DNA of 38,056 nucleotides from an uncultured Bacilli bacterium (GTDB taxonomy: Bacteria > Bacillota_I > Bacilli_A > RF39 > UBA660). A model generated the notes under the pieces. That model did no database searches, was not told where the DNA came from, and saw only the letters and a program-made list of their open reading frames with translations. The stretch spans positions 1 through 38,056 of the forward strand of contig CANQPC010000012.1 of assembly GCA_947625625.1 (NCBI GenBank), given 5' to 3'. A program made the position numbers and the translations under genes. Below, piece after piece: positions 1 through 7,112 of this stretch; the first letter of the stretch is position 1; each line of letters begins with the position of its first letter.

Positions 1-65
1 TATAAAAAGAAAAGCCTAATTTCAATAGAAATTAAACTTTTTTTATTTCTTCATCTGTCAAACTC
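1..65 (+). mobile_element. Right end of an IS1634-type insertion sequence (body outside window)
   Basis: Positions 52-65 match the right terminal inverted repeat of the IS relic at 26409-26422 in 12 of 14 bases (CATCTGTCAAACTC against CAACTGACAAACTC). Just inside it, 20-31 forms a 6-bp hairpin (AATTTC/GAAATT) followed by a T7 run, matching the terminator-then-terminal-repeat layout of the relic. The transposase gene itself is not in the window. The orientation matches the other two copies. The element borders the accessory block directly. Confidence 0.5.
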
Positions 66-136
66 GGGTTATAACATACATTATAATAATGTTTTATTTT
101 ATAAATATAGAATAGTAAAAATTTTATTAATTTCAC

Positions 137-308
137 GGATTGCAGCTTATGCCACAATCCCATTTGGGATGAATAACATTGCTATAAAATATATAAAACT
201 AAGAATTTATTGCAGAAAAATAGGGCTCTATCCTAAAATAGACCCCTTACAAAAATGATTTAACATTTTTTCCTTGCATAGATAATATATCACAAAATTA
301 TATCTATG
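137..308 (-). ncRNA. Candidate structured RNA downstream of the HEPN gene
   Basis: No ORF lies here, but three hairpins follow the HEPN gene stop on the same strand: an 8-bp inverted repeat 277-284/301-308, a hairpin 223-245, and a hairpin 137-160. Read as minus-strand RNA, 160-137 forms a continuous 10-bp stem (GGATTGTGGC/GCTGCAATCC, two G-U pairs) closed by an ATAA loop. Read as plus-strand RNA the same positions give C-A mismatches, which favours the minus strand. A competing stem (157-162/165-170) shares one arm. HEPN proteins of the AbiF group have been linked in recent literature to adjacent non-coding RNAs. Whether this is such a partner or only a 3' UTR is inference. Confidence 0.3.
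214..246 (-). terminator. Rho-independent terminator after the HEPN gene
   Basis: On the minus strand a stem GGG..TCTA/TAGA..CCC with one G-G mismatch and an 8-nt loop is followed by TATTTTT. It would end the HEPN gene transcript about 70-100 nt after the stop codon. Confidence 0.5.
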
Positions 309-313
309 TCAAA

Positions 314-1312
314 CTACTCATCCAAAATTTCTTTATAATTTTTTTCAATTATTTTATCAAAATATTGATAAATGGATTTAAGTAGTTCATTATTAGTATA
401 GTATTTTCTATTAAGAATTATTCTTCCATAAAATAATTTGCTAATTTCATGATTAACATTTCTTTTTACTCCATCACTACTTACAATAATATTAAATAAA
501 TATAAAGTATAAGTTATCTGCCTTATTCTTGAATTTTTTAATTTATTATCTCGATTTTCTTTTCCTATGCCACAATCTTTTAGGTAGTTAATAATTAAAA
601 TATCTGGTCTATGGGTATTATCTTTTTTATCAAGGTCGGATAATACACAAGAATTATGAGCTACTGCATTTCTAAGTTTATTTACTTCTCTTAAAATAAA
701 TACATATTTTTTATCTTCTAAATTATAATGAGCAGTAAAAAATTCAAAAAAGTTTATCAATTCTCCAAAAGTTATTATTTCTAAAAACTCCCATATTGGA
801 ATATTTTCAAGTTTTTTATCTTTATCTAAATCATACTTTGAAAATATTTTTTTATAATATTCATTAGATACTTTCTTCATAATACTATCATGCACTCTTT
901 TAGGAAACTGTTCATCATTATAATCTTTATCAAGATATAAATTTACAATATTATATCCGTCTTCTTCATCTATTTCCTCAATACTATTTAATATTCTAAT
1001 CTTTAAATAATGTTCAATATCAATTATCATTTTAAATAGCACAATTCTAGTCCTATAATCTAAAATGGATAAGTCTTTCAAGTAAGCAAAGTCCAAATCG
1101 ATATATTTACCTATTGATTCTCCACACTGATACTTAACAAAATTATTTTTATACGATGTTACATTAAAATAATTATTATTTTCTCTAAGATATTGTTCAG
1201 CATCTTGTTCTTTGCACTCTTCAAATTTAATATTTTTTTGTTTTAAATATGGAACCATTTCAGAAATTTTCATCATAGGTCTTAAAGTATTTGTAGTAAA
1301 ATTTTTAATCAT
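314..1312 (-). CDS. Abi_2 family (AbiD/AbiF-like) HEPN protein
   Basis: A 332-residue protein of the Abi_2 abortive-infection superfamily. Family features visible are the N-terminal block with NYFNVTSYKNNF (residues 47-58), the D99-E100-HYLK stretch, the WEFLEIITFGELINFF segment (174-189) and the HEPN ribonuclease motif R-x4-H as RNAVAH (R214, H219). The ~110 residues after the HEPN core are less typical. Members of this superfamily are phage-defence or toxin-like proteins thought to cleave RNA. No adjacent protein antitoxin is seen. It has its own Shine-Dalgarno (AAGGTGAT, 3 nt before the ATG) and an extended -10 (TGTTATAAT, 1336-1344), so it may be transcribed independently of the OLD-like gene 48 bp upstream. 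CG dinucleotides are scarce compared with core genes, consistent with transfer. Family call is firm; RNase activity is inferred. Confidence 0.8.
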   Translation of the reverse strand: MIKNFTTNTLRPMMKISEMVPYLKQKNIKFEECKEQDAEQYLRENNNYFNVTSYKNNFVKYQCGESIGKYIDLDFAYLKDLSILDYRTRIVLFKMIIDIEHYLKIRILNSIEEIDEEDGYNIVNLYLDKDYNDEQFPKRVHDSIMKKVSNEYYKKIFSKYDLDKDKKLENIPIWEFLEIITFGELINFFEFFTAHYNLEDKKYVFILREVNKLRNAVAHNSCVLSDLDKKDNTHRPDILIINYLKDCGIGKENRDNKLKNSRIRQITYTLYLFNIIVSSDGVKRNVNHEISKLFYGRIILNRKYYTNNELLKSIYQYFDKIIEKNYKEILDE

Positions 1313-2704: not shown

Positions 2705-3175
2705 TTATTTTTTTTCATAGGTTATAAGTGCCTTAATTATATATTGCTCAATATATCTTTTATCCCTTTTCAATAATTCTTTTGGTAACACCGATTCAAT
2801 TTTTGCTTTATTAAATGAAATTTTGTCATTTTGATTTCCTTTTTTCTCTATCAATATATTTTCTACCATATCAAAAGTTAATTTTTTCTTCTCACTTATT
2901 TTTCTAATTTTTAAGACTTGTGCATAACTTGGTGTAACTTCTTCATAAGTAATTGTAAAATATACTAACTCTTGAGCATCTTTTGCTAGATAAGAGAGTT
3001 CAACAGCGGTAGTTATTCCTAAAGTTAAAATGCTTCTCTTATCATAAATAACCGTATCATCAACAATTTTTAGTAGTTCGGGTATTAAATAAGTCAGTCT
3101 TATATACCTTCGTACTTGTTCTCGTGATTCTCCACTAACTTTAGATATTAATTCAACTGATGTTAACTTCTGCAC
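2705..3175 (-). CDS. ParB-like partition protein, C-terminal part (frameshifted)
   Basis: A 156-codon frame continuing the ParB-like protein encoded just upstream. Its start region holds the ParB helix-turn-helix (ELISKVSGESREQVRRYIRL, about residues 9-28) and the following helices (TYLIPELLKIVDD), then a Lys-rich C-terminal region. It overlaps the upstream frame by 13 bp and has no convincing start signal of its own. It becomes contiguous with the N-terminal half if one base is added in the A8 run at 3192-3199, giving a protein of about 280 residues, the size of mobile-element ParB/RepB/Spo0J proteins. Either a pseudogene, an assembly or sequencing indel, or a product of slippage. Confidence 0.7.
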   Translation of the reverse strand: MQKLTSVELISKVSGESREQVRRYIRLTYLIPELLKIVDDTVIYDKRSILTLGITTAVELSYLAKDAQELVYFTITYEEVTPSYAQVLKIRKISEKKKLTFDMVENILIEKKGNQNDKISFNKAKIESVLPKELLKRDKRYIEQYIIKALITYEKK

Positions 3176-3558
3176 ATCCTGTGTAGAAGTGTTTTTTTTC
3201 CTTGATGTTTTATCGCCTCTAATTTCATTTTATAAGCAAATGCTTTTTCTGATGGTAAAATTTTATTTCTATAAATATTAGAATCAACCATATAAATAGT
3301 AGCTTCATCATCATTTAATTCTTCAACATAACAACTAGCCTCATAAATTCCATTTAATTCTAATGCTAATTTTCTTCTATGACCTGATATCATTTCATAT
3401 CTTCCATTTTCTTTTCTTCTTACTACTAATGGATTTAACAATCCATTCTCCTTAATGCTCATTCTTAATTCGTTTAATGATTCATCGTTTTCTACTCTAA
3501 AAGGATGATTTTTAAATAAATCTATCATTCTTAAATCTATTTTTATTACTTTTTTCAT
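3163..3558 (-). CDS. ParB-like partition protein, N-terminal part (frameshifted)
   Basis: A 131-codon frame with the ParB N-terminal nuclease/CTPase domain: FKNHPFRV (15-22), ENGLLNPLVVRR (37-48), the SGHRR motif (58-62) and the DDEATIYMVDSNIYRN block (83-98). Homology ends at QGKK (119-122); the last nine residues are out-of-frame sequence after an A8 run. The real C-terminal half lies in the next frame (2705-3175). The ATG abuts the stop of the XRE gene, indicating translational coupling. ParB-like proteins of this size on integrative elements usually sit beside an XRE-type gene and act in maintenance or regulation. Origin from a mobile element is likely. Confidence 0.78.
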   Translation of the reverse strand: MKKVIKIDLRMIDLFKNHPFRVENDESLNELRMSIKENGLLNPLVVRRKENGRYEMISGHRRKLALELNGIYEASCYVEELNDDEATIYMVDSNIYRNKILPSEKAFAYKMKLEAIKHQGKKTLLHRMCRS

Positions 3559-4335: not shown

Positions 4336-6975
4336 CTATTTGCTTTCCTTTTCTTTTAAAGCAGCTTGTGCCGCAGCAAGTCTAGCAATTGGCACCCTAT
4401 AAGGTGAACATGATACATAGTTTAAACCAATATTGTGACAGAATTCTACTGATGAAGGTTCTCCACCATGTTCTCCGCAAATACCAAGCTTAAGGTCTTT
4501 TCTTGTACTTCTTCCCTTTTCAGCAGCCATCTTAACTAAACTACCTACTCCAACTTGATCGAGTTTAGCAAAAGGATCAATTTCATAAATCTTATTTTGA
4601 TAATAAGCATCTAAGAATTTACCAGCATCATCTCTCGAAAATCCAAAGGTCATCTGCGTCAAATCATTAGTTCCAAATGAGAAGAATTCAGCCTCCTTAG
4701 CAATTTCGTCAGCAGTGAGTGCAGCTCTAGGTATTTCAATCATCGTACCAATATGATATTCCATGTCAGAGTTTTTCTCTTTCTTAACCTTTTCAGCAGT
4801 TTCGACGACAATATCTTTAACAAACTTAAGTTCCTTAACCTCTCCGACAAGTGGTATCATTATCTCAGGAACTATATCGAATCCCTCTTCTTCTTTTACC
4901 TCAATAGCGGCTTCCATAAGTGCTCTTGTCTGCATTCTAGCAATCTCTGGATAAGTGACTGCAAGACGGCAACCACGGTGTCCCATCATTGGATTAAATT
5001 CATGTAACTCGGCACATTTATTCTTAAGATGCTCTACACTTACGCCCATATCTTTAGCTAAGGCTTCAATATCTTCATCTTCAGTAGGTAAAAATTCATG
5101 TAGAGGTGGATCTAAATATCTAACCGTCATAGGAAGACCTTTAAGTTCCTTATACATAGCCTTAAAATCACCCTTTTGAAATGGAATAAGTTCATTCAAA
5201 GCTTTTTCTCTTTCCTCGACTGTTTCCGATAAAATCATCTTTCTAATTTTAGGAATTCTATCTTCCTCAAAGAACATATGCTCCGTACGACAAAGACCAA
5301 TACCTTCGGCTCCAAGTTCGATAGCTTTCTTAGTATCTCTAGGATTATCGGCATTTGTTCTAACTTTTAATTTTCTATATTCATCAGCCCAAGCCATAAT
5401 TCTTCCAAAATCACCACTTACTGTAGCCTCGTTAGTTTTAATATCACCTTTATATATTTTACCAGTATTACCATCTAACGAAATATAATCACCTTCGTGG
5501 AAAGTATATCCACCTAAAGTAAATTCCTTAGCTTCTTCGTTGATAGAAATAGCCCCGCAACCAGCAACACAGCAAGTTCCCATACCACGGGCAACAACTG
5601 CCGCATGCGATGTTCTTCCGCCTCTTACAGTAAGAATACCTTGAGCCGAAGCCATTCCTTCAATATCTTCAGGAGTCGTTTCGAGTCTTACGAGGACAAC
5701 TCTTTCATTTTTTCCACCTTTTCCAAGTTCCTTAGCATCTAAAGCCGTAAATACTACTTTACCTGCAGCGGCCCCTGGTGATGCTGGAAGAGCTTCACCA
5801 ATTACTTCAGCCTCTTTAAGTGATACCGGATCAAACGTTGGATGAAGTAACTGATCCAAACTTTTAGCATCAATTCTCATAACAGCTTCTTCAGGAGTAA
5901 TCATTCCTTCATCGACTAAATCACAAGCAATTTTAATTGCAGCATGAGCCGTTCTCTTACCGTTTCTAGTCTGTAAGAAATATAATTTACCCTCTTGAAT
6001 AGTAAACTCCATATCTTGCATATCACGATAATGATCCTCTAGCTTATTAGCAAGTCTCATAAATTCTTCGTAACATTCAGGTAAATCTTCTTTTAATTTA
6101 GTAATAGGTTCAGGAGTCCTAACACCCGCTACGACATCTTCACCTTGAGCGTTAATTAAATATTCTCCATAAATTCCCTTTTCACCAGTTGCTGGATCTC
6201 TCGTAAAAGCAACACCAGTACCAGAAGTATTTCCCATATTACCAAATACCATCGATTGTACGTTAACAGCGGTCCCCCAATCACCAGGTATATCATTCAT
6301 TCGGCGATATACGATAGCTCTCGGATTATCCCAAGATCTAAATACCGCTTTGACAGCTCCCATAAGTTGTTCTTTAGCATCCTGTGGAAATTCTTCACCA
6401 TTCATATGGTCGCTGTATACTTTTTTAAATCTCTTTACTAACTCTTTTAAATCATCAACTGTAAGTTCAGTATCGTAAGTTACGCCTTTCTCTTCTTTTA
6501 ATTCATCGATAATTTTCTCAAAGAAAGACTTGTTAACTTCCATTACGACATCTGAATACATTTGAATAAATCTTCTATATGAATCATAAGCAAATCGAGG
6601 ATTACCTGTCTTCTTAGCAAAGCCTTCGACTGATACATCATTAAGTCCTAAATTAAGAATCGTATCCATCATTCCTGGCATTGAAGCTCTAGCACCACTT
6701 CTAACTGATACAAGAAGAGGCTCCTCATTATCTCCAAATTTTTTACCCATTACCTTTTCTAATTCTTCTAAAGCTGTAAATATCTGATTTCTAATTTCTT
6801 CAGATATTTCTTTACCATTATCGTAGTAATTAGTACAAGCTTCAGTTGTTACCGTAAATCCTTGAGGTATTGGAAGTCCCAAATTAGTCATTTCTGCCAA
6901 ATTAGCTCCCTTACCACCAAGAAGATTTCGCATATCTTTGTTTCCTTCCTTGAAGGCATATACATATTTTGTCAT
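4336..6975 (-). CDS. ppdK: Pyruvate, phosphate dikinase
   Basis: Converts pyruvate, ATP and phosphate to phosphoenolpyruvate, AMP and pyrophosphate, reversibly; in anaerobes it often runs toward pyruvate in a PPi-linked glycolysis. From the chosen ATG at 6975 the product is 879 residues, the usual family length. Visible are the N-terminal nucleotide-binding domain (GGKGANLAEM near 20-30; SVRSGARASMPGMMDTILNL), the phosphohistidine loop GGRTSHAAVVARGMG, and the C-terminal TIM-barrel with the catalytic Cys in GICGEHGGEP. The frame opens at 7014, but GAGGAG sits 9 nt before the ATG of MTKYVYAF, which also fits the family N-terminus. Monocistronic, ended by the hairpin at 4189-4216. Confidence 0.97.
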   Translation of the reverse strand: MTKYVYAFKEGNKDMRNLLGGKGANLAEMTNLGLPIPQGFTVTTEACTNYYDNGKEISEEIRNQIFTALEELEKVMGKKFGDNEEPLLVSVRSGARASMPGMMDTILNLGLNDVSVEGFAKKTGNPRFAYDSYRRFIQMYSDVVMEVNKSFFEKIIDELKEEKGVTYDTELTVDDLKELVKRFKKVYSDHMNGEEFPQDAKEQLMGAVKAVFRSWDNPRAIVYRRMNDIPGDWGTAVNVQSMVFGNMGNTSGTGVAFTRDPATGEKGIYGEYLINAQGEDVVAGVRTPEPITKLKEDLPECYEEFMRLANKLEDHYRDMQDMEFTIQEGKLYFLQTRNGKRTAHAAIKIACDLVDEGMITPEEAVMRIDAKSLDQLLHPTFDPVSLKEAEVIGEALPASPGAAAGKVVFTALDAKELGKGGKNERVVLVRLETTPEDIEGMASAQGILTVRGGRTSHAAVVARGMGTCCVAGCGAISINEEAKEFTLGGYTFHEGDYISLDGNTGKIYKGDIKTNEATVSGDFGRIMAWADEYRKLKVRTNADNPRDTKKAIELGAEGIGLCRTEHMFFEEDRIPKIRKMILSETVEEREKALNELIPFQKGDFKAMYKELKGLPMTVRYLDPPLHEFLPTEDEDIEALAKDMGVSVEHLKNKCAELHEFNPMMGHRGCRLAVTYPEIARMQTRALMEAAIEVKEEEGFDIVPEIMIPLVGEVKELKFVKDIVVETAEKVKKEKNSDMEYHIGTMIEIPRAALTADEIAKEAEFFSFGTNDLTQMTFGFSRDDAGKFLDAYYQNKIYEIDPFAKLDQVGVGSLVKMAAEKGRSTRKDLKLGICGEHGGEPSSVEFCHNIGLNYVSCSPYRVPIARLAAAQAALKEKESK

Positions 6976-7112
6976 TTTTTTCATCTCCTCACTTTTTAAT
7001 GATAACAAAAACAAAATAAAAAGGCAATCATTTTATTCTTATATTTACACTTTTATTAAAAATGTTTACTCTATATTCTCATTTTATTAAATAAAAAAAG
7101 AGATTTTTAATA

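Follow-up and report, generated by a model that had tools for sequence, protein, structure and literature searches.

The DNA on the 3′ side of abiF in an uncultured Bacilli bacterium carries, on the minus strand at 312–216 of the analysed window (the whole stretch of 38,056 nucleotides), a promoter and a small structured RNA which together probably constitute an RNA antitoxin gene, paired with the gene of an AbiF HEPN RNase toxin located immediately 5′ of it. This assignment is based on the conservation of the block, its promoter, its minus-strand sense, covarying stems, a near-obligate linkage to intact abiF genes and an intact HEPN motif in the AbiF protein. The positions of the individual elements are compiled in Table 1.

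Table 1. Elements of the abiF–RNA locus in window coordinates.
Feature	Position	Strand	Basis and remarks
abiF / Abi_2 HEPN RNase gene, putative toxin	314..1312	-	332 aa; Pfam Abi_2, PADLOC AbiD, HEPN motif R214-N-A-V-A-H219
Promoter of the RNA	284..312	-	TTGACA, 17-nt spacer, TATATT, extended -10 TGn; 11/12 consensus matches
P0, inverted repeat across the promoter -10	279..306 (306-301 with 284-279)	-	covariation
Structured RNA gene, putative AbiF RNA antitoxin	216..279	-	covariation; model R1 86.8 bits; minus-strand fold z=-3.0
P1, 7-bp A-U-rich hairpin	251..270 (270-264 with 257-251)	-	3 pairs double-changed, 99.3% of cells paired
Linker GYAW, single-stranded, between P1 and P2	247..250	-	near-invariant unpaired positions
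P2, hairpin with 2x2 internal loop, then UAUUUUU; also terminator	216..246 (246-237 with 232-223)	-	covariation
3′ flank containing the 137-160 hairpin	133..215	-	recurs in some relatives; hairpin unconserved

The abiF gene and its genomic setting

The window derives from a 1.16-Mb MAG; among named records, its close relatives are uncultured Bacilli of the gut, including the rabbit-gut ‘Lapin’ MAGs and Candidatus Onthousia. Its AbiF protein matches Pfam PF07751 (Abi_2) with E=2.3e-22 and 80.6 bits (cut-off 25.6) and the PADLOC profile AbiD with E=3.7e-18. The RNxxxH catalytic motif is present as RNAVAH, and its residues R214, N215 and H219 are invariant in 26 homologues. When the AbiF profile was searched against PDB sequences, the solved AbiF chain 8VZ6 was not recovered, and the sole match, a ribosomal protein, was spurious.

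Directly upstream of abiF, an AAA ATPase of the OLD/GajA/AriA type with a TOPRIM-like end is encoded (1361–2665), possibly a second defence gene of a small island beside abiF. At 2705–3558, a ParB-like protein is apparently split into two overlapping frames, of which 3163–3558 contains the ParB_N domain and 2705–3175 is perhaps the remainder; this seems to reflect a frameshift or an assembly error. On the other side, window 1–313 comprises all DNA left on the contig past the abiF stop codon and is, as the first-pass annotation had recorded, a 313-bp stretch free of open reading frames. Near-identical copies of positions 1–77 lie in the same genome on contigs C30, C6 and C7, at their ends or close to them, so that the assembly is broken inside a repeated element; on the minus strand, these bases read as the last part of a gene (...NPSLTDEEIKKV) followed by a terminator.

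Promoter, stems and sense of the RNA

The promoter of the RNA begins one nucleotide past the abiF stop codon. The 3′ sides of homologous abiF genes share at this position a conserved block consisting of TTTGACA-N17-TATATT followed by ATGCAAGGAAAAAATGTTAAATCATTTTTGTAAGGGGTCTATTTTAGGATAGAGCCCTATTTTT. The −35 core (TTGAC), the TG of the extended −10 and the TA...T positions (TAnnnT) of the −10 are invariant or nearly so across 47 relatives, which marks the element as a promoter directed away from abiF. The transcript is expected to span about 277–216 (~62 nt), with a start deduced from the promoter, seven bases past the −10 element, and an end in the U run at 216. Strong conservation likewise ends at this U run, apart from ~50 further bases of flank common to some members of the close clade. 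A terminator scan returned 0 sites, probably due to the U tract starting with UA.

RNAalifold, applied to 47 sequences, proposed two hairpins in the RNA (P1 and P2) and an inverted repeat over the promoter (P0). In 40 distinct RNAs, P1 and P2 together show standard pairs in 99.3% of cells, with double changes at 7 pairs (23 cells); P2 alone contributes 4 double-changed pairs, with 99.4% of cells paired and 74 G-U against 1 A-C combination. The observed covariation of P1 plus P2 was reached by 0/500 shuffles and scored 0.259 compared to at most 0.108 for slid controls, it being understood that related sequences may exceed shuffles without any structure. Read in the sense of the RNA, both stems contain 75 G-U and 3 A-C combinations. 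Double changes with almost no broken cells and this 75:3 bias leave, at the level of sequence comparison, little room for doubt that the conserved element is an RNA and that the minus strand of the window encodes it. The variable unpaired parts are limited to short loops and the 2x2 internal loop, the latter differing among clades (GU/AG against CA/AG). P0 also covaries (double changes at 5/6 pairs in 57 cells, a level reached by 0/500 shuffles), with 26 G-U against 5 A-C combinations. It may be either a stem solely formed in read-through transcripts or a DNA operator, the distinct mismatch types being too few to tell the two apart.

The first-pass annotation had also postulated a strand-specific structured RNA beside the HEPN gene, but derived the strand from a hairpin at 137–160. 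In sequence and fold its arms indeed pair continuously over 10 bp, with two G-U pairs, only as minus-strand RNA. Among randomised 313-nt regions, only 1.5% contain, on either strand, a hairpin of 10 or more bp that includes 3 or more G-C pairs. The region 90–313 folds better than its shuffles on both strands with z about −2.8, so that energy alone does not pick the strand. The DNA around the hairpin (about 133–215, 83 bases) is found again past the terminator of the RNA in about a dozen close relatives; however, all 10 pairs are realised in the window only, the other copies forming 0–8 of 10 and all of them lacking the outermost G-C pair. We therefore treat the 137–160 hairpin as a local accident rather than as a conserved structure. 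Consequently, the covarying minus-strand RNA exists, but it is located at 277–216, with 137–213 outside, and its strand specificity becomes visible in the G-U excess of P1 and P2 across relatives, not in the hairpin originally put forward. Conservation and covariation within 100–313, on which the annotation had made its proposal depend, were both found. The terminator it had assigned to 214–246 is a terminator hairpin, but one identical with the 3′ hairpin (P2) of the conserved RNA; as this hairpin forms the 3′ end, a transcript past the terminator is not required.

Association with abiF and solitary copies

The RNA was detected at 66/66 loci with an AbiF identity of at least 47% and a readable 3′ side, in nearly all of them directly past the stop codon; these loci include redundant MAG copies, and 61 of them provide 50 distinct promoter plus RNA sequences. 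In one locus (L073) the RNA has been displaced by 1.2 kb from abiF after an insertion. At 30–40% AbiF identity, in Lachnospiraceae and gut phages, the same plan of short hairpin, linker and long terminator hairpin follows the stop codon. Several distant or phage loci are matched by model R1 with E values between 1e-7 and 0.007, in sense orientation and just 3′ of abiF; the scores of these matches come without a covariation test of their own. Among the distant and viral loci every R1 match with E<0.01 is found in this position and sense, except for second tandem copies (L095, L187), the displaced copy of L073 and a copy 5′ of a truncated abiF (L108). No such RNA was found at the distant AbiF genes L117, L120, L127, L039 and L040, two of which have little 3′ sequence. 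Conversely, a search of the wider class with the RNA as sole query revealed a full-length AbiF directly 5′ of a match in another family (G667). Two RNA copies in tandem are present in L095, L101 and L187, with an own promoter-like TTGAC element for each copy in L095 and L101. At another locus (L027, 2419–3014, genome G089) a full OLE RNA (RF01071, 367 bits) lies ~200 bp past the terminator of the AbiF RNA.

Model R1 identified 42 strong copies (E<1e-8) across 291 genomes from the bacterial family to which the window belongs; 19 of them adjoin an intact or decayed abiF and 23 do not; more than 1.1 kb of upstream sequence is available for 18 of these 23 solitary copies. Three of the 23 (L131, L150, L161) retain the last 26–32 bases of abiF before the promoter, indicating that abiF was lost and the RNA retained. 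Intact abiF genes of the family sample are accompanied by the RNA in 11/11 cases, and an intact abiF without the RNA was not found in the close clade. This one-way loss pattern is consistent with the prediction for a toxin-antitoxin pair, although it is no proof of addiction because abiF is a roughly ten-times larger mutational target. Some solitary copies have no promoter or have lost a pair (L160, L167, L148, L155), and thus not all of them are under selection. As a tentative possibility, to which we attach limited credence, the solitary RNAs with intact promoter and stems might be selected as stand-alone antidotes against the AbiF of phages or other incoming elements and thereby form an anti-toxin or anti-defence RNA family in its own right.

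AbiF RNA copies were repeatedly encountered downstream of the pyruvate phosphate dikinase gene (ppdK), namely in L131 (G240:C28), in L179 (G119) and in the window (4336–7014). Two solitary RNA copies, 0.6 kb from each other, follow ppdK in genome G240; in G119, ppdK and abiF are separated by an HNH endonuclease-like gene. The region downstream of ppdK may be an integration hot spot. A comparison of the 3′ flank, which includes the 137–160 hairpin, with the 3′ end of ppdK in view of an att-like copy yielded 22 for the window against a random maximum of 37 and was not significant; the one above-random case was G119 (38 against 31), where the likeness is also weak with respect to its own ppdK.

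Related systems, alternative readings and mode of action

The closest functional counterpart is RCd22 of C. difficile prophages, which binds AbiFCd, depends on its stems and neutralises the toxin both in cis and in trans (PMC12373285). In both systems a structured RNA neighbours the gene of an Abi_2/AbiF HEPN protein (profile match E=9e-10). However, RCd22 is positioned 5′ of abiF, is co-transcribed with it and contains two RF03085 motifs, whereas the window RNA is placed 3′, has its own promoter, consists of a single P1+P2 unit and does not match RF03085. According to papers citing the work of Zilberzwige-Tal et al. 2025, the PbAbiF–AbiFr complex (PDB 8VZ6) is a HEPN dimer with one ncRNA per monomer and an RNxxxH active site (PMC12373285, PMC12737573); on the basis of these citing papers, the active site motif is common to PbAbiF and the window AbiF. 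The Rfam family RF03085 (abiF RNA) resembles the window element as a small hairpin RNA beside Abi_2 genes, but gave no match at E<=10 in window 1–320 and none in the loci of 16 relatives, while the positive control, C. difficile phiC2, was matched with 37.6 bits. Its absence from sets of 11 and 295 genomes is uninformative, as the control genomes there were silent too. Rfam searches at permissive thresholds on the window and its relatives returned no relevant match to an AbiF RNA. The type III toxin-antitoxin systems ToxIN, TenpNI and CptNI likewise include an RNA antitoxin next to an RNase gene and a terminator, and the tandem copies of L095, L101 and L187 recall their arrangement. Their antitoxins, however, are 5′ tandem repeats co-transcribed with a toxin whose fold is unrelated to HEPN, in contrast to the window RNA with its 3′ position, own promoter and single copy; tandem copies are confined to the three loci mentioned. 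The hallmark of AbiF RNA toxin-antitoxin loci, a conserved structured RNA stably adjacent to abiF, is given by the occurrence at 66/66 loci together with the covariation. By analogy, the window locus would work like the RNA antitoxins AbiFr and RCd22, belonging to the AbiF protein family but not to RF03085.

In its simplest interpretation the element would be merely the transcription terminator and 3′ UTR of abiF, devoid of an own function. P2 plus the U run do have the shape of a terminator directly after abiF. We nevertheless consider this quite unlikely, since it leaves unneeded the invariant extended −10 promoter, the covarying P1, the invariant 5′ tail and the linker, and since promoter and RNA are retained in solitary copies that have no abiF. 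There is also little probability that the RNA chiefly controls abiF expression in cis, as an attenuator or via P0, rather than binding the protein: its position 3′ of abiF with an own promoter precludes attenuation from upstream, and the solitary copies favour an action in trans, even though P0 covaries and overlaps the promoter and RCd22 likewise reduces abiF expression in cis (PMC12373285). The annotation's proposal of an antitoxin or a guide-like partner agrees in its first half with other AbiF systems (PMC12373285). A crRNA-like guide steering AbiF to complementary targets might be suspected because AbiF has been proposed as the ancestor of Cas13, but it is highly improbable, as AbiF is described as non-guided in the same work (PMC12737573, PMC12948488), and as the variable spacer beside a constant repeat that characterises CRISPR-Cas13 guides has no equivalent here, the longest variable unpaired runs being loops of 2–7 nt and no segment varying beyond loop length. 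A short leaderless peptide gene starting with the ATG at 279 was rejected as having a negligible chance, because despite an ATG at the inferred 5′ end of 38/40 RNAs (GTG in the other two) the frames range from 10 to 22 codons, the P1 loop of 4, 5 or 6 nt breaks the frame, a Shine-Dalgarno sequence is lacking in 47/47, and substitutions track base pairing.

For the favoured RNA antitoxin, toxicity, direct binding, neutralisation and the phage trigger are carried over from studied AbiF systems, and we propose the following scenario. Transcription of the RNA would start at a strong promoter of its own, and read-through from abiF would probably supply it as well, at the 3′ end of the abiF mRNA. 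By analogy it most likely binds to the AbiF HEPN dimer, blocks the RNase site and keeps AbiF harmless. A drop in its supply, for example by phage shut-off of host transcription or by degradation, might then liberate AbiF, which would cut RNA and stop growth. The contacts between RCd22 and AbiF cannot be transferred to the window RNA because it does not match RF03085.

RNA-controlled toxins are already known; new to the resources searched are the RNA family, its 3′ position and its survival without the toxin, although Zilberzwige-Tal 2025 or Weinberg 2017 may already show a 3′-encoded AbiF RNA. With AbiF as a proposed Cas13 ancestor, the key open step is the transition from an RNA antitoxin to a guide RNA. 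An RNA family absent from Rfam, with another gene order and its own promoter, adds to the AbiF RNAs available for comparison in this respect; its defined stems, which covary, and its variable internal loop lend themselves to tests of specificity. The many toxin-less copies make it testable whether antitoxin RNAs are kept as antidotes after loss of the toxin.
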